Positions 1 to 9,211 of a DNA stretch of 40,414 nucleotides are shown piece by piece. This DNA is from Candidatus Effluviviaceae Genus V sp. (GTDB lineage: Bacteria > Joyebacterota > Joyebacteria > Joyebacterales > Joyebacteraceae), in the NCBI GenBank assembly GCA_014728125.1, contig WJMD01000018.1:1-40414 (forward strand). Direction: 5' to 3'. The translations under genes and the position numbers were made by a program. Within the stretch, counting starts at the first letter, position 1. Each line of letters begins with the position of its first letter. The notes below the pieces were generated by a model, which did not search any database, had not been told where the DNA came from, and saw only the letters and a list, made by a program, of their open reading frames with translations.

Positions 1-3000
1 CCCGTCGTAGAGCGTCCGCACGAGCCGCCCCGCGACGTCACAGACCCGGATGACGACGCGGCGACCGTTCCCCGGCGTGTCGAACGAGAGCTCGGTGGAC
101 GCCGTGAACGGGTTGGGTCTCGGAGGACGAAGCGCCGTGAGCAGCTCTCCGGGGGTCCGCACGGCGACAGGGCCCGTCCCGACGGTCACCTCGGTGGTGT
201 CGCTTCGGACCGCCCGGACCTCGTACCAGAACTCGCCGCCGGGCCAGCAGCTGTCATCGACGTACCCACCCTGAGTCGCAGGCTGGACCAGAAACTCGTT
301 GAGCCGGTCGAAGGTCGTCCCCCCATCCACGGAACGATACACGTTGAACCCGTCGAGACCGAACGTGGTTGGAACCCACCAGCACAGTGTGACGACACCG
401 TACTCGACCGTCGTCTCGACGACGCCGGCCCCCGGCGAGGAGTCCAGGACGTCGACGGCCACGGGGATGATGGTGGTCGAGCCTCGGGGATCGCTGGTCT
501 CCAGCAGGAGCTCCGCAACGTGCTCCCCGACGACCAGCTCCCCGGCATCCACGGTGACCCGGATCTCACGTGACTGCCCCTCGGGGACCGTTCCGGCAAC
601 GGCATCGAACCCGATCCAGTCGATGACGCCGGAGGGGTCTGCGTCTCCGGCACCCGGTTCGTGCGCACGGACGCTCCAGGAGAGCTCGGCGCTTCCGACG
701 TTGTCGATCGAGAGACGGAGCGTCTCGGCGAGGCCCGAGAACACCTCGGTCGAGAGCGACTCCGGCGACACGTCGGCCAGCCCGCTCGGCAGCGCGAGCG
801 CCCCGAGCGGCACACCGATGACGGGCATGTCGGCGTCGTTGCTCTCGATGGAGAGTTCGCCCTCGAACCATCCCGGGGCCTCCGCGAAGAAACTCACAAG
901 TACCGCCGCTTCGCCGCCGACCGGGACCGCGAGGGATGTTGTGTCCGCGCGGAAGCAGGTATGGTCGGTGGACATGGAGTGGACCACAAGCGGAGCCGTG
1001 CCGCTGTTGCTGATGACCAGCGTCTCGCTGGACGTCGCCGCATGGTACGTGTCCGGGAACCGAAGACTGGTCGCCGAGAGCTCGAGCTGGCTGCCCCCGA
1101 CGACGAGCAGCTCGAACGGGACCACGATGTTCGCCACCTCGTTTGCGCTGTCCAGAAGAACGACCGACGCCGAGTGAACGCCGTGTCCGAGCCCCGACGC
1201 GTCGGCCGTGAGCGTGACGTCCGAGCCGCCACCCGGTGGTGCCTCGCCGGACCAGTCGGATGGCTCCAGCCACGCGGCGCCGAAGGCGAGCCAGTCGAAG
1301 GCCGCGCGAGCGAGGACGGCGTTGTCCTCTCTCCAGATCAACCAGTCCTCAAAGAGCTGCTCCGCTACGGCCACGATCCTCCCCTCCCCGTACCGAGACC
1401 CGGCTGCGTTCGGAATCGCCGCCGTGTCGGCGAAGAGCAGGAACGAGTGCGGCGCAACGTCGACCAGTCTCGCTCTGTTCGATGCGAGATGCACGCGGGT
1501 CACATCCCTCGTGATGCAGTGCGGGTGGATGTCGGTGGTCGTTCCCGCAAACCCCGAGAACTCGCTGTATGCGAACGGGTCGCCGAGGTCAGCCAGGACA
1601 TCATTGAAGGCGACAACGTCCTGGTCGAGGTCGGAGGTCAACAGAAGCCCGCCGCCCGACAGCACCCATGCGGAGAGCGCCTCTCTTTCCGACTGCTGCC
1701 AGATCTCCTGAACCGAGCCGCTCCACACGATGTCGCAGGGGGCGAGAACCTGGGGCGTGAAGCTGCTGTGATTCTCAATGACCAGGGCCCCTCGGTCGCG
1801 AAGCTCCTGTACGATGTCACCGACGCAGCCGATGCCGGGCTGTCCGTGTGAGCGATCCCACATGATGACGAGGCCCTCGAGGTCCTGACTGCCGGTCTGA
1901 CCGGGTCCGCTGGAGATGTCGAGGTCCCACGCGAACGGCGCCCATCCCGCGTTCTCGATGGACAGGGCGAACCCGTCGGACTCGCCGTCCTCCAGGAGAA
2001 CCTCGAACCCGACCGGAGATACGGAGACGTCCGGTAACAGGACGCCGGTGCCGGCCAAGTCCACGGTGAGGCTGCCCTCGTCGGGATCGTCCGACAGGAT
2101 GGTCAATGCCCCTTCCAGCGCACCTCCCCCGCGTGGTGCGAAGGTCACCTCGACGTCCCGGGCGGAGCCCGCATCGAGGAAGAAGGAACTCGGCAGAGCG
2201 GAGAACGAGCTGTCGGTCGTGGCGATGTCGGCGACATGAAGCCGGGACGTCCCCTCGTTCAGGACCTCAAGCCGTCGCTCCAGCTCGTAGCCGACGACGA
2301 CGTCGCCGAAGTCGATCGCCGTCTCTGCGACGGCGATGTCGGGCGTGGCCGTCACTGCCATGACGACGGGGACCGCAACCTGACCCTCATCCGGGTCGTT
2401 GCTCACCAGAACGACGACGGCCTCGTAGACGCCTCCCTCCAGATCGATCGCGTCGAACTCAACCTCGATGCTGTCGGCCGCTCCGGGCAGGATCTCACCG
2501 GACGCGGGCCTGATCGAGAGCCACGTCGGGCTCGTCGGCCGGCCTCCGTCTGAAGGAGGCGGACCGCAGGACGCGGTCCAGACCAGACCGCTCGCACCGA
2601 CGTTCCCGACGACCAGCTCGAGTGTGTCCCGGAGATCCGAGAGTATCTCGGTCTCGAGCGAGCTCGGACCAACCTGGATGTCGGGCGGCAGGAGAGCGTC
2701 GCCGCTGAGATGCACGACGGCCTCCGGCTGGTCGGCGTCGTTGCTCCAGACGGAGAGCGTTCCCGTCCTGGTCCCCTCGGAGGCCGGAGCGAATCCGACC
2801 TCGATCGACCGGGACGCTCCCGCCCACAGGGCGAAGGAGGCCTGCGGCGCATGGAACCCGTCACCCCGCACCTCGACCGACGACACAAGCAGCGAGTCGG
2901 TGCCGGCGTTCGTCACCGTCAGCGTCTCGAGCACGGTCGCCGAGACGAAGACCTCCCCGAAGTCGAGGTGCGTGTCCGACAGAGCGATCGAGGGGAAGCC

Positions 3001-6000
3001 GGTCACCGTCGCCGTGACGCCGATGTGAAGCTCGGGGGTGTCGGGATCGCCGGTCAGCATGCGGAGGTCGGTCCGATACAGCCCCCCGAGCATGCCGTCC
3101 CTCCCGACCGAGACCTCGACGGCCACCGACCCTCCCGTCTCGACCGTCCCTCCGGTCGGCTGGAGCGTCAGCCAGTCGACCCCCAGCGCCAGCCAGTCGA
3201 AGGTCTGGTTCGCCAGAGACCTGTTCTCCGCGCGGTTGACGTGACCGTCGTGCAGCACCTCGTCAGAGAAGGCGACGACCCTGCCCCTGCCGGGGATCGA
3301 GACCGCCCCGGCGGCGACACCCGCATTGTCGGCCACGACCGTCCGGGACGGCGGGTTCGTCTCCGGGATCGACGCGCCGTTCGCGCGCAGGTAAACGCTG
3401 TCGACGCCGCACGTCACAGCGTGCGGGACGATGGAGATCGTCGTTCCGGGCTCGCCGTCCGCGGACGAGTAGACGAGGCCGCTCCCCATCTCGCGGAGAA
3501 TGGAGTTGTACGAGACCGTACTGGCCGGCTCGTCGCCCTCCAGCAACAGGCCGCCTCCCGCCTGCACCCACTCACCCAGGGCGGCGATTTCCTGAGACGA
3601 CCACGTTCCCGAGTTGTCCGTGATCCAGAGAACATCGACCGACTCGAGGACGGACGGCGTCAGTGGCTCGTCGATCTCACAGACTGAGGCGCCGCGGTCC
3701 GTGAGGTCGCCGATGATCACCGACCAGAGGCCGCTCGGGTGCTCACCGTGGTAGCGGTCGCGCGCGACGACCACACCCGACAGGTCGCCGTGGCCCCTCC
3801 CCCCGCGGGCGGTGTCGCCCAGCGAGACCTCGCGATCAACGCTCCAGCTCAACGGGCTCCCTCCTTGATTCTCCAGAAGAAGCTCGACCGCGACCAACTC
3901 CCCGCTCATGTACGCGACCGCGACGGACTCGGGCGAGACGGCCGCGACCGGGGGCGGGACGGCGGAACCGGTGAGGGGGATCTCGACGAGCGGCGTGTCC
4001 GGGTCGTTGCTGTCGATCAGGAGCTCCCCGGTGTGGGAACCCTCCGTCTCAGGTGAGAAGGAGACCTCCACGAACCGGCTCGCGCCCGGCTGCAGCGAGA
4101 ACACTCCCGTGAGTGTGGCAAAGGGCCCGCCTTCAACATCGACCGAGGACACATCGAGCGTGCCGGTTCCGCTGTTCCACACGAAGACGGACTCGACGCT
4201 CGTCGACGACACATAGAGCTCTCCGAAGTCGACTGGGTCGGGTCCCGTCTCGATGTCCGGGACCCCGACCACGTCGAGGTGAACGGACACGGGACGGACC
4301 GGTTGCTCCTGGTCGTTCGAGACGATGACGAACGCTGTCTCGTGGGTGCCTGCGGGGATGCCGCCCGTACTGAACGTGATGTCGACGCGGGACGATTCGC
4401 CGGATGCGATGCTCCCCTCGTCGGGCTCAAAGGCGAACCAACTGACAGGCGGATCGACGGTCGCGGTCCAATCGAGCACGCCTTCGCCGATGCTCCACAG
4501 ACGGAGCGACACGTCTGTCGACGCTCCGGAGAGGACCGTGGCCTCAAGCGAGTCCGGGCTCACGGCAAGACCGGGCGCTCCGAGCGTGACGCCTTCTGCG
4601 ACATTCGAGATCTCGGAGGCGTTCCCGTATTCGTCGATCGATGTGAGAGCGAAGTACCAGGTCGTTCCCGGGGAGAGACCGGAGACCCTGAACGACTGGA
4701 GGCTGCCCGGTGGGTCCGGGACGGGTGGCTCGGAGACCTGGTGCGCGTCCTTGAACGTCGTTGCGTCGATCTCGAGGGTGTCGTACCGGACGTCGTACCG
4801 CGATGCGATCCCGTCCATCCCATCGTCTCCGACGGCCGTCCACGCAATGTCGGCACGCGTCGAGCCGACCTCCTCCAGCATCAGGTCGGTCACCGGCGCG
4901 GGCTGAACGGTGTCGGGCCCCACGATGGCCGCGTGTGCGTTCAGGCGCCCCCCGGACGCGACGGCTCCCTGAAGCCCGAGCACCGGCTCGGCCGCCGTCA
5001 GCAGCCGCCACGCGAGCTCGTAAGCTCCCGCATCCGGCGAGTCGGCGAGCATCAGGGCGAGGACACCCGCGACGTGCGGAACGGCTGAGGAGGTCCCGGA
5101 CATGAGTCCGTAGCCGCCGCCGAGCGTCGGGCCAGGGATCCTGGTTCCCGGAGCGACGATGTCAACTGTGGTCGCGCCGTAGTTGGACGCCCAATCCAGC
5201 TCGTCCGCCAGAGCGTCACGCTCGTCGGAAGCGGCCACCGAGATGATGTTCGGTGGTTCGTAGCAGGAAGGGTAGACCGGGTAGGCGTCGTTGTCCTGCC
5301 CCCTGTTCCCCGCTGCAGCGACGAACAGCACGCCGGCCAGGGAAGCTTCCCAGATGGCCTGTTCGAGCGCCAGCGAGTACGGTCCTCCGGACCAGCTAGC
5401 GCTCATGATGTCGGCGTCCATCAGGATCGCGTACTCGATGCAGTCAATCGCGTCGGCGTTGCAGCCGATGCCGCTCTGGTCGAGCAGCTTGACCGGCAGG
5501 ATCGAAACCTCCCAGGCGACACCGGCGGTGCCTGTCGCGTTGTCGCCGACGGCTCCGACGACCCCCGCGCAGTGTGTGCCGTGTCCGTGATCATCGGAGG
5601 GATCGGCATCTCCGTTCCGGAAGTCCCACCCCCGCGCGTCGTCGATGAAGCCGTTGCCGTCGTCGTCCTCCCCGTTCGGCGGCGTCTCCGCCTCGTTCAC
5701 GAAGAGGTTGTCGATGAGGTCGGGATGGTCGAGGTCCACGCCGGTGTCGAGCACGGCCACGAGGATATCGCGCGAACCGGTCGTGATGTCCCACGCGTCC
5801 AGTGCACAGATGTCGGCCCCGACTAAGCCCCCTCCCACGCCGGTGTTGTGAAGCGACCACTGGGAGGGGAAGAGAGAGTCGCTGGGGACGCTCGCGAGTG
5901 CGAGAAGGTAGTTCGGTTCGGCGAAGACCACAGCGTCGCTCTCGCCGCAGCGGGCCAGCGCCGTCTCCACAGTCAGCGACGACAGCTCAACGAGGTCCGC

Positions 6001-6198
6001 GTCGATCAGCCCGATGTGGCGAACGACCGTCCCGCCGAGGTCGAGAAGAAGCCGGGCGCGCTCCCCTGCGGGCGCGCGCTCGCTGAACGACACGATGATC
6101 TCGCCTGGTACGTACGGACGCTCCGGAGCATCACCGGAGAGGGTGGTCACACTGGTGAGAAGAAGGAGTGCTGCAAGGAGCGGAGCGCGCATGGGCAT
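1..6198 (-). CDS. Secreted subtilisin-like (S8) serine protease, very large, C-terminus cut by window edge
   Basis: The reading frame is open from the ATG at 6198 to base 1 (2,066 codons, no stop), so the 3' end lies outside. The start has GGAAGG 5 nt upstream; a second in-frame ATG is at 6192. A signal peptide (about residues 1-22) is followed by an inhibitor-like propeptide (about 28-100) and a peptidase S8 domain with Asp151 (VLDTGVD), His206 (GHGTHCAG), oxyanion Asn298 and Ser370 (GTSSAVPHVAG). After a fibronectin-III-like segment (about 430-540) come alternating ASPM/SPD-2/Hydin-like beta-sandwich repeats. Two copies of a Rossmann-like, glutamine-amidotransferase-like domain (about 808-1010 and 1442-1640) sit between them. 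The last visible residues are the start of a FlgD/Por-type secretion tail (PRPNPF, then VCDVAGRLVRTLYDG). It is probably a cell-surface or secreted protease. The catalytic assignment is firm; substrate is unknown. Confidence 0.93.
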   Translation of the reverse strand, partial: MPMRAPLLAALLLLTSVTTLSGDAPERPYVPGEIIVSFSERAPAGERARLLLDLGGTVVRHIGLIDADLVELSSLTVETALARCGESDAVVFAEPNYLLALASVPSDSLFPSQWSLHNTGVGGGLVGADICALDAWDITTGSRDILVAVLDTGVDLDHPDLIDNLFVNEAETPPNGEDDDGNGFIDDARGWDFRNGDADPSDDHGHGTHCAGVVGAVGDNATGTAGVAWEVSILPVKLLDQSGIGCNADAIDCIEYAILMDADIMSASWSGGPYSLALEQAIWEASLAGVLFVAAAGNRGQDNDAYPVYPSCYEPPNIISVAASDERDALADELDWASNYGATTVDIVAPGTRIPGPTLGGGYGLMSGTSSAVPHVAGVLALMLADSPDAGAYELAWRLLTAAEPVLGLQGAVASGGRLNAHAAIVGPDTVQPAPVTDLMLEEVGSTRADIAWTAVGDDGMDGIASRYDVRYDTLEIDATTFKDAHQVSEPPVPDPPGSLQSFRVSGLSPGTTWYFALTSIDEYGNASEISNVAEGVTLGAPGLAVSPDSLEATVLSGASTDVSLRLWSIGEGVLDWTATVDPPVSWFAFEPDEGSIASGESSRVDITFSTGGIPAGTHETAFVIVSNDQEQPVRPVSVHLDVVGVPDIETGPDPVDFGELYVSSTSVESVFVWNSGTGTLDVSSVDVEGGPFATLTGVFSLQPGASRFVEVSFSPETEGSHTGELLIDSNDPDTPLVEIPLTGSAVPPPVAAVSPESVAVAYMSGELVAVELLLENQGGSPLSWSVDREVSLGDTARGGRGHGDLSGVVVARDRYHGEHPSGLWSVIIGDLTDRGASVCEIDEPLTPSVLESVDVLWITDNSGTWSSQEIAALGEWVQAGGGLLLEGDEPASTVSYNSILREMGSGLVYSSADGEPGTTISIVPHAVTCGVDSVYLRANGASIPETNPPSRTVVADNAGVAAGAVSIPGRGRVVAFSDEVLHDGHVNRAENRSLANQTFDWLALGVDWLTLQPTGGTVETGGSVAVEVSVGRDGMLGGLYRTDLRMLTGDPDTPELHIGVTATVTGFPSIALSDTHLDFGEVFVSATVLETLTVTNAGTDSLLVSSVEVRGDGFHAPQASFALWAGASRSIEVGFAPASEGTRTGTLSVWSNDADQPEAVVHLSGDALLPPDIQVGPSSLETEILSDLRDTLELVVGNVGASGLVWTASCGPPPSDGGRPTSPTWLSIRPASGEILPGAADSIEVEFDAIDLEGGVYEAVVVLVSNDPDEGQVAVPVVMAVTATPDIAVAETAIDFGDVVVGYELERRLEVLNEGTSRLHVADIATTDSSFSALPSSFFLDAGSARDVEVTFAPRGGGALEGALTILSDDPDEGSLTVDLAGTGVLLPDVSVSPVGFEVLLEDGESDGFALSIENAGWAPFAWDLDISSGPGQTGSQDLEGLVIMWDRSHGQPGIGCVGDIVQELRDRGALVIENHSSFTPQVLAPCDIVWSGSVQEIWQQSEREALSAWVLSGGGLLLTSDLDQDVVAFNDVLADLGDPFAYSEFSGFAGTTTDIHPHCITRDVTRVHLASNRARLVDVAPHSFLLFADTAAIPNAAGSRYGEGRIVAVAEQLFEDWLIWREDNAVLARAAFDWLAFGAAWLEPSDWSGEAPPGGGSDVTLTADASGLGHGVHSASVVLLDSANEVANIVVPFELLVVGGSQLELSATSLRFPDTYHAATSSETLVISNSGTAPLVVHSMSTDHTCFRADTTSLAVPVGGEAAVLVSFFAEAPGWFEGELSIESNDADMPVIGVPLGALALPSGLADVSPESLSTEVFSGLAETLRLSIDNVGSAELSWSVRAHEPGAGDADPSGVIDWIGFDAVAGTVPEGQSREIRVTVDAGELVVGEHVAELLLETSDPRGSTTIIPVAVDVLDSSPGAGVVETTVEYGVVTLCWWVPTTFGLDGFNVYRSVDGGTTFDRLNEFLVQPATQGGYVDDSCWPGGEFWYEVRAVRSDTTEVTVGTGPVAVRTPGELLTALRPPRPNPFTASTELSFDTPGNGRRVVIRVCDVAGRLVRTLYDG

Positions 6199-6446: not shown

Positions 6447-6914
6447 ATGCAGCGATTCCGCAGGCTTCTTCTGCTCCCGGCCCTCCTGCTCGCGGCTGGG
6501 CTTGCCGCTCCCGCGCACGCCGACGTTGGTGAGATCTACCAGGAGGACGACTGGGCCACGGAGAAGCACGTCCCGGTCATAGAGTGCCCCGACGCTTTCG
6601 TCCCGGGTGAGATGACGGACATCATCGTCTCCGTCGGCAAGGAGATCAACCACCCGAACACGACCGAGCACCACATCCGCTGGACCAGGCTCTACTTCAT
6701 GCCCGAGGGTTCGCCCTTCGCCTACGAGATCGGGAGCGTCGAGTTCGGCGCCCACGGCGAGTCGACGGCCGGGCCGAACACCAGCACGATCTACACCGAC
6801 CACGTCGCCATGTTCCGCATGAGGACCGGGGTGCCCGGCACGCTGTACGCGACCTCGTTCTGCAATATCCACGGGCTCTGGGAGAGCATGAAGGAGATCA
6901 CGATCGCGGAGTAG
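6447..6914 (+). CDS. Exported superoxide reductase (neelaredoxin / class II desulfoferrodoxin family)
   Basis: The 155-residue protein matches the iron centre of superoxide reductases, which reduce superoxide to hydrogen peroxide without making oxygen. The expected Fe ligands are all present: His41 (EKHVP), His69 and His75 (HPNTTEHHI), Cys139 and His142 (CNIHGLWE). There is no N-terminal Cys4 desulforedoxin domain, so it is the single-iron class. Unlike most members it begins with a clear signal peptide (Arg-rich start, Leu/Ala core, AHA cleavage site near residue 25), which predicts a periplasmic location. AAGGAG (6435-6440) precedes the ATG by 6 nt, fixing the start. It stands alone, with its own promoter and a hairpin terminator at 6941-6968. 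The family call is firm; export is inferred from the leader. Confidence 0.9.
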
Positions 6915-6940: not shown

Positions 6941-6968
6941 GCGGGGCGGGCGGGGATGTCCGCCCCGC
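6941..6968 (+). terminator. Hairpin terminator after the superoxide reductase gene
   Basis: A perfect 9-bp GC stem (6941-6949 with 6960-6968) closes a 10-nt loop and is followed by CGTCTCTT. The T-tract is weak, as is usual in GC-rich genomes. Confidence 0.6.
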
Positions 6969-7051
6969 CGTCTCTTGCCGATCCCACGTCGGCCGATATG
7001 GTCGACCGGGCCGTCCGCACGTGCTCCTCACACCATTCGGCCCCGGCCCGC

Positions 7052-7080
7052 TTGACGCGGGCCTCCACGAGGGTTAGCCT
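7052..7080 (+). promoter_or_regulatory. Predicted promoter of the EF-G gene
   Basis: TTGACG (7052-7057), 17-nt spacer, TAGCCT (7075-7080), 40 nt before the ATG at 7121. Its position argues against translation starting further upstream. Confidence 0.6.
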
Positions 7081-7120
7081 GCGCGCGAACCCATTCACAC
7101 GTGAGACAGCGGAGCAGACC

Positions 7121-9211
7121 ATGCCCAGGAACGTCGACATCAGGCGGGTCCGGAACGTCGGACTCATGGCGCACATCGACGCCGGCAAGACGACCGTCAC
7201 CGAGCGGATCCTCTACTTCTCAGGAAGGACCCATCGTCTCGGCGAGGTACATGACGGCCAGGCGACCATGGACTGGATGGTCCAGGAGCAGGAGCGCGGC
7301 ATCACCATCACGTCGGCCGCGACGACCGCCTACTGGAAGGACCACCGGATCAACATCATCGACACGCCGGGTCACGTCGATTTCACGGCGGAGGTCGAGC
7401 GCGCTCTGCGGGTGCTCGACGGCACCGTGGCGCTCTTCTGCGCCGTCGGCGGCGTCCAGCCTCAGTCGGAGACCGTCTGGCGACAGGCGGAGAAGCACGG
7501 CGTGCCGCGCATCGCCTTCGTCAACAAGATGGACCGCATCGGTGCCGACTTCGAGGGTGTGGTGCGTGAGATCCACGAGGAACTCGGCGCGAACGCCGTG
7601 CCTGTCGTCCTGCCGATCGGTGCCGAAGACTCCTTCGAGGGGATCATCGACCTCGTGGACATGAAGGCCGTCTACTTCGATGACGACGGCAAGCGGATCC
7701 ACATCCGGGAGGAACCGATCCCCGACGAGCTCCTGGAGAAGGCGCGGGCGGCCGAGGAGATCATGATCGAGCGCATCAGCGAACAGGACGATCGCCTGAT
7801 GGAGAAGTTCCTCGAGGGTGAGACCCCTGAGCGCGACGAATGCGTCGCCGCCATGAGAAAGGCAACGATCGCCGGAGACGTCATTCCCGTCCTCTGCGGC
7901 GCCGCCTTCAAGAACAAGGGCGTTCGCCGGCTGATGGACGCGATCATCGATTATCTGCCCTCCCCTCTCGACGTGCCTCCCGTCATCGGCGTGAAGCCGG
8001 AGAGCGACGCGGAGATCGTCCGACACCCCGACGACGATGCGCCGCTGGCCGCGCTGGCTTTCAAGATCCAGTCCGACCGCCACATGGGAAAACTGACGTA
8101 CGTGCGGGTCTACTCGGGCACGCTCAACTCCGGCGCGACCGTCTACAACGCCGTCCGCGAGAAGCGCCAGCGGGTGGGTCGCCTGTTCGAGATGCACGCC
8201 GACGACAGGCAGGCCATAGAGATGCTGCACGCCGGCGAGGTCGGTGCCGTCGTAGGACTCGCGGACACCTCGACCGGCGACTCGCTCACGAGCGAGGAGC
8301 ATCCGGTCATCCTCGAGGCCATCGAGTTCCCGGCGCCCGTGATCAGCATGGCGGTCACGCCGCAGAGCAGAACGGACCGCGACAACCTCCAGAAGGCGCT
8401 CATCAGACTCGCCGAAGAGGACCCGACCTTCACGGTGGCGACCAACGAGGAGACGGGGGACACGATCATCTCCGGTATGGGGGAGCTCCACCTCGAGATC
8501 ATCGTCGACCGCCTGAAGCGTGAGTTCAATGTCGCGACCGAGGTCGGCAGGCCGCAGGTCGCCTACCGCGAGACGATCGTCGGAACGGTCGAGCACGAGG
8601 AGAAGCACGTCAAGCAGACCGGCGGTCACGGGCAGTACGCGCACATCAAGTTCAGGCTGGACCCGGGCGGACCGGGCTCGGGCTTCGACTTCCGCGACGA
8701 GGTCAAGGGCGGGCGCATACCGCGGGAGTACATCCCTGCGGTCGAGCGCGGCTTCCTGGATGCCATGGCGAAGGGCCCCTACGCCGAGGCCCCCATGGTG
8801 GATGTCCGGGCGACGCTCCTGGACGGGTCGTACCACGAGGTCGACTCATCTGAGATGGCATTCAGGACCTGCGCGTCCCGGGGCTTCCGGGAGGCGTGCA
8901 GGAAGGCCGGCCTCGAGCTCCTCGAGCCCGTGATGAGCGTCGAGGTCATGGCGCCCGACGAGTACACGGGCGGCGTCACGTCCAGCATCTGCGGCAAGCG
9001 TGGTCACATCGAGCACATGGAGCCGAAGCAGACCGTGACCGTGACGAGCGCCCGAGTGCCGCTGGCCGAGATGTTCGGCTACTCGTCGGAGCTGCGGAAC
9101 ATCACCAGCGGACGCGGTCAGTTCACGATGCACTTCGAGCGATACGAGGCCGTGCCGTACGCCATTGCCGAGGAGATCGTCGAGGAGAAAGGGGAAGGCG
9201 AAGGGAACTGA
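7121..9211 (+). CDS. fusA: Translation elongation factor G
   Basis: The 696-residue protein is a full-length EF-G, the GTPase that translocates tRNA and mRNA on the ribosome. G-motifs are in order: AHIDAGKTT (about 17-25), [19 protein letters not shown], and a G5-like CGAAFKNKG. Domains II to V follow, including the GGHGQYAH segment of domain IV and a C-terminal domain ending near [12 protein letters not shown]. An in-frame extension to 6956 exists, but it would cross the terminator stem and the predicted promoter, so the ATG at 7121 is preferred; a modest GGAG lies 7 nt upstream. The gene is not beside rpsL, rpsG or tuf, so it may be a second EF-G paralogue. That is inference, since the rest of the genome is not visible. 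Confidence 0.95.

Follow-up and report, generated by a model that had tools for sequence, protein, structure and literature searches.

The stretch of DNA analysed here (the window) is the entire contig WJMD01000018.1 (C18), 40,414 nucleotides, of the 2.52 Mb, 190-contig genome of Candidatus Effluviviaceae Genus V sp. (GCA_014728125.1). At one end it encodes a giant peptidase S8 (subtilisin-type) protease whose stalk is predicted to carry two Rossmann-type domains of the DUF4350/GIFT family, each inserted into a single loop of an ASH-like beta sandwich. We propose, with moderate confidence, that these stalk-nested GIFT domains serve as non-catalytic docking modules. GIFT and ASH domains are known above all from the cilia of eukaryotes, from the glycosylation machinery of the endoplasmic reticulum, and from site-1 protease (S1P), the human cholesterol-control protease.

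The two GIFT copies are related to one another, as the first-pass annotation had claimed. Copy 1, delimited by Pfam, self-alignment and a structural model, covers residues 805-1006 (window positions 3181..3786; all features of the protease lie on the minus strand), and copy 2, delimited by self-alignment and a model, covers residues 1439-1640 (1279..1884). They are identical at 81 of 209 positions (39%) in a gap-free alignment (BLASTP E 4e-47), and their alignment score of 374 against a best of 61 in 500 shuffles rules out chance likeness. Both hold the GGGLLL segment that had been described for them. The opening motif is present as well, but its spacing had been misquoted and is G-[VL]-V-x(2)-[RW]DR-x-HG; the final DWLA[LF]G is also there, but what had been taken for a strand is the end of an alpha-helix (DSSP, module 2, helix 237-253). 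Within the whole protein copy 1 scores 38.0 bits with Pfam DUF4350 (PF14258; cut-off 30.4), and the assignment to DUF4350/GIFT by Pfam cut-off is made through this copy; copy 2 alone gives weak ThuA, DUF4350 and IFT52_GIFT scores. A profile of 16 relatives searched against the PDB finds IFT52 by sequence (5fmr, E 3e-8; 8bd7, 1.4e-7; 5fms, 5.5e-7). A nine-sequence profile reaches a known GIFT domain at E 0.16 only, and S1P is not reached within E 10 by the sequence profile of GIFT relatives. Beyond the two copies, the window's genome yielded no further GIFT-type domain.

AlphaFold2 models were made of modules 1 and 2, each consisting of a sandwich and its insert. The module 2 model has a mean predicted local distance difference test (pLDDT) score of 82.7 and a predicted template modelling (pTM) score of 0.72. 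Its topology runs from four strands through a core of alternating strands and helices (58-253) to more strands. The alpha/beta part is closest to the GIFT domain of IFT52 (5fmr_A, Z 22.3 over 194 residues at 2.2 A; 5fms_A, Z 22.0), followed by the GIFT domain of human S1P (9csd_A and 8uw8_A, residues 619-874; Z 18.9, 20% identity), yeast and human oligosaccharyltransferase (OST) subunits (Z 16-18; yeast 6ezn_G, Z 18.0), and other glutamine-amidotransferase-like and ThuA-like proteins together with true glutaminases (Z 14-16). Module 1 matches IFT52 5fmr_A with Z 14.5 and S1P with Z 14.3 (22% identity). The Rossmann core of the glutamine-amidotransferase-like superfamily that had been suspected is thus predicted and fold-matched in both copies, better in copy 2, and plain beta-sandwich segments, the outcome named earlier as speaking against it, are ruled out by the module 2 model and the fold comparison.

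The term "inserted", used for these domains in the first-pass annotation, proves to be literal. Module 1 (residues 748-1067; 2998..3957) and module 2 (residues 1387-1701; 1096..2040) were delimited by the models and by half-domain profiles. The outer parts of module 2 jointly match a single uninterrupted ASH domain (7n6g_4C, 101 residues, 1.4 A, Z 13.9), and those of module 1 jointly match the CEP192 ASH domain 6fvi (112 residues, 2.3 A, Z 13.8). In the models, then, the two outer parts of each module form a single ASH (PapD-like) sandwich that is split by its GIFT copy. Half-domain profiles locate five such sandwiches in the protein, and their paralogy is also seen in an alignment with the inserts cut out. 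Three of them have an empty loop: residues 542-645 (4264..4575; loop of 17 residues), 1170-1283 (2350..2691; 15 residues) and 1810-1917 (448..771; 15 residues), the limits being taken from the profiles and the alignment; in the two others the gap is 217 and 210 residues and is filled by GIFT. An ordinary ASH/HYDIN-type domain (PF22544; residues 1069-1166; 2701..2994) lies between the modules, and the stalk domains in general score with ASH/HYDIN and BACON-type families (PF22544, PF15780, PF19190). The arrangement is not particular to this protein. All 15 full-length GIFT domains in nine open reading frames (ORFs) of four genomes sit between an N-half and a C-half; the half-domain profiles were built from eight of these 15 domains, and seven are independent of them.

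The nine-sequence profile finds matches in 24 of 386 genomes (E 1e-5 or better); a large share of them are short or in other protein layouts. In the phylum of genome G356 (phyla are as in the genome collection's taxonomy), four of five genomes match at E 1e-10 and ten of ten distinct full-length copies are nested between the same half-domains; one further partial match, in a 309-residue ORF, is not nested. The phylum of G022 has 11 of 17 genomes matching, with 15 hits. By eye, the flanks place ten of these in a different immunoglobulin (Ig)-like repeat and two probably so, two are cut by contig ends, and one is not nested. In one of the nested cases, L063 (G022), GIFT sits in an Ig-like repeat at residues 2391-2712 of a 3,131-residue ORF; that protein also has an empty paralogous repeat, which shares 56 of 101 flank residues, and the insert measures 221 residues. 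Two other GIFT-bearing proteins (L062, 9893-11287; L061, 1318-2661) have dockerin-like stretches, recognised by eye, followed by a FlgD-like tail; for a cohesin-like domain in this pair, the Pfam cut-off of 24.1 bits is passed in L062 only (24.9). Query A1 had no match among genome contigs and query A2 none among viral contigs; query A3 found one locus among genome contigs.

The sandwich loop also holds domains other than GIFT. In the relative G004 (metagenome-assembled genome contig JALGVU010000075.1), seven sandwiches contain GIFT and five contain inserts of other kinds: two NIDO-like, one propeller-like and two of a type without a name, the names being given by eye. Pfam assigns neither the "FDF" nor the NIDO-like inserts to a family and has a chance-level match only for the propeller-like one. 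The giant G004 protein (L025, contig C512; L027, contig C456; L026) alternates ASH domains with split sandwiches of at least four insert kinds, and no protease motif was detected in it. The stretch encoded at the end of C512 recurs at the start of C456, and a frame shift, either a sequencing error or real, lies at about 4,470-4,700 of L025. In the window's own genome, sandwiches of the same kind are split by other inserts in a second S8 protein (L092, contig C154) and in a C25/gingipain-like peptidase, so named by eye (L093, contig C171).

On the sequence evidence, the protease is one carrier among a group of large surface proteins that share the nested module. It is regarded as only one carrier because the S8 His motif was found in the window protein alone among 15 proteins in a narrow motif check, and because its S8 domain is without a close orthologue among the 20 genomes of its phylum. 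Five of those 20 match the domain at E 1e-20, its own genome included, the others at 35-43% identity.

The residues kept in the GIFT copies bear on what these domains might do. For the nucleophile elbow, 24 domain matches in 15 proteins were collected, and the 20 covering more than 150 profile positions were kept, four short ones being dropped. A Cys at the elbow following GGGLLL occurs in none of these 20 aligned domains, and the residues there vary. The check for a Cys-His-Glu triad proposed in the first-pass annotation therefore finds its Cys absent from both copies, whose own Cys residues sit away from the elbow. Because the glutaminase Cys is absent, the copies are probably not amidotransferases, and active class I glutamine amidotransferases are held unlikely. 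One His is invariant in all 20 of these divergent copies, and D1448, H1451 and H1560 of copy 2 are kept in 13, 14 and 15 of the 15 closest sequences.

In the proposed model, the gene encodes a subtilisin, 2,111 residues long, that would reach the surface or be secreted by means of a signal peptide and a C-terminal domain of the type IX secretion system (T9SS) type. In its stalk, ordinary ASH-type sandwiches alternate with a second, ASH/BACON-like type that tolerates large inserts at one loop. In two of the five sandwiches of this second type a GIFT domain is predicted to be nested; it should project sideways from the stalk, and there it may dock a glycan or protein ligand and so hold the protease close to substrate or matrix. 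Sequence comparison or predicted models back the ORF, the triad motifs, the family assignment of the two copies, their nesting, the missing glutaminase Cys and the sorting domain. The proposal is in line with the sugar binding proposed for GIFT domains elsewhere (PMC7226087, after a 2004 paper) and with the protein contacts seen in them (PMC11231238).

Several observations weigh against this reading. Taken alone, copy 2 scores 14.1 bits with DUF4350, below the cut-off of 30.4. Both AlphaFold2 models rest on alignments of eight sequences; the other four models of module 2 have mean pLDDT values of 61.7-72.5, and the module 1 model averages 65.8, with residues 163-223 below 50. Over 15 sequences, the sheet's active-site side has on average less conserved loops than the opposite side (2.25 versus 3.02 bits), and no conserved active-site edge was found; this speaks against an enzyme with a conserved catalytic centre, and equally lends a ligand pocket at that place no support of its own. 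The binding role, which the first-pass annotation had already suggested, is inferred and its ligand putative.

The same loop conservation bears on the possibility that the inserts are structural spacers that thicken or stiffen the stalk, with no specific binding. The fold is kept while the loops on the classical active-site side are the less conserved ones, and in relatives the same sandwich loop takes unrelated inserts, as if bulk or shape mattered. Against it, polar residues outside the core (D1448, H1451, H1560) and the invariant His are retained at the frequencies given above, and we consider this explanation possible but unlikely. A role in cis, in which GIFT would pack on the S8 domain as in S1P, support the oxyanion region and control entry to the active site, appears more doubtful still. 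The S1P GIFT domain is among the nearest folds to both modules, and the S1P study describes it as packing on protease loops and linked to the oxyanion residue (PMC11231238). It is also described there as starting at residue 617, directly after a beta sandwich at 479-616, whereas the copies in the window protein start at 805 and 1439 with sandwiches between, and the same nested module is found in relatives' proteins lacking the S8 His motif. Since the copies start some 400 and 1,035 residues past the S8 domain, docking from the stalk seems more probable than an effect exerted on the protease itself. That the inserts are active glutamine-amidotransferase-like enzymes using another nucleophile or a metal site is very improbable: they share their fold with true glutaminases and ThuA-like proteins and have conserved Asp and His residues, but no Cys occurs at the elbow in any of the 20 sequences, where the residues vary, and the active-site edge is no more conserved than the rest.

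The domain order of the protease is a signal peptide (probable, judged by eye), a propeptide, the S8 domain, a weak fibronectin-III region (20.6 bits, below the cut-off of 25), the run of ASH/HYDIN-type domains and a FlgD-like C-terminal domain. The propeptide is of the fervidolysin type (PF22148, 47.6 bits, cut-off 21; residues 23-96; 5911..6132). The catalytic domain (residues 143-403; 4990..5772) scores 169.6 bits with PF00082 (cut-off 21.8) and has the triad motifs at D151, H206 and S370 (Ser motif 368-378); domain score and Asp-His-Ser motifs together place it in the peptidase S8 (subtilase) family. The ORF starts with an ATG at 6198 and runs off the contig start at position 1, with 2,066 residues inside the window. 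Over window bases 1-141 the sequence coincides exactly with the beginning of contig C11, from the same genome, and no comparable overlap with other contigs appeared among the matches of that search. C11 (locus L076) adds 45 residues and a stop, which recovers the C-terminus that had been reported missing and gives a protein of 2,111 residues, in agreement with the earlier statement that it exceeds 2,066. The FlgD-like/T9SS type A C-terminal domain begins in the window (residues 2028-2066; 1..117) and has its remainder on C11. It scores 45.0 bits with PF13860 (cut-off 27) and 29.8 with TIGR04183, T9SS type A sorting (cut-off 23); Pfam Por_Secre_tail is below its cut-off (23.4, cut-off 27). The genome encodes SprA, with SprA_N above cut-off. 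A sorting domain over its cut-off in a SprA-bearing genome marks the protein as a predicted T9SS cargo.

Divergent from the protease gene is a gene for a desulfoferrodoxin-like protein (window 6450-6911, plus strand; PF01880, E 1e-28) with a signal-peptide-like start, judged by eye, followed by an elongation factor G gene at 6956-9211. Just downstream of the protease, at 310-1167 on the plus strand of L076 (contig C11), is an ORF that by eye resembles an ABC-transporter ATPase.

Compared with known systems, the two copies have the fold of the DUF4350 (PF14258)/GIFT domains, which include the IFT52 N-terminal domain (the source of the Z of 22.3), GldG and OST48/Wbp1. Archaeal DUF4350 proteins have been described as consisting of a signal peptide, a single extracellular domain and a single membrane segment, and DUF4350 has been related to GldG (PMC5898192); in the window protein, by contrast, two copies of the domain are nested in sandwiches of a secreted protease. 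The general fold is also that of class I glutamine amidotransferases and ThuA-like proteins (Z 14-16), but the nucleophile Cys of the amidotransferases is absent from all copies examined. Structural alignment fits the split sandwiches onto solved ASH domains at 1.4-2.3 A; they resemble the ASH/PapD-like and BACON sandwiches of HYDIN, CEP192 and OCRL, from which they differ by the domain of about 200 residues in one loop of two of the five second-type sandwiches. Searches of the open-licence PubMed Central library brought up no paper naming a GIFT-in-ASH-sandwich architecture, and a bacterial surface stalk with repeatedly nested GIFT domains looks like a new form of a combination that has a precedent.

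A Rossmann-like domain in the stalk had been called unusual for a subtilisin. The domain is indeed there, but the combination of S8 and GIFT has precedent, because S1P (MBTPS1) itself belongs to the S8 proteases and has in its ectodomain, adjoining a beta sandwich, a GIFT domain with the same fold; this GIFT domain may hold calcium (PMC11231238). S1P, as described there, has one GIFT copy that is near the S8 domain and touches it. The window protein does not share this layout of GIFT near S8 after one sandwich: its S8 domain ends at 403 and its first GIFT begins at 805 with several sandwiches between, and it has two copies nested in ASH-type sandwiches and a T9SS-type C-terminus. A broader suggestion, speculative and on balance rather improbable as a whole, is that the ASH-like loop is a general socket for interchangeable domains (GIFT, NIDO-like, propeller-like and others) on the T9SS-type surface proteins of several phyla, proteases included, and that the S8-sandwich-GIFT ectodomain of eukaryotic S1P descends from such a bacterial surface protease. 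Empty and filled ASH sandwiches side by side in bacterial secreted proteins offer a natural experiment on domain insertion, the nested GIFT domains a set of small constructs for asking what GIFT domains bind, and these proteins bacterial comparators for the S8 and GIFT layout of S1P.

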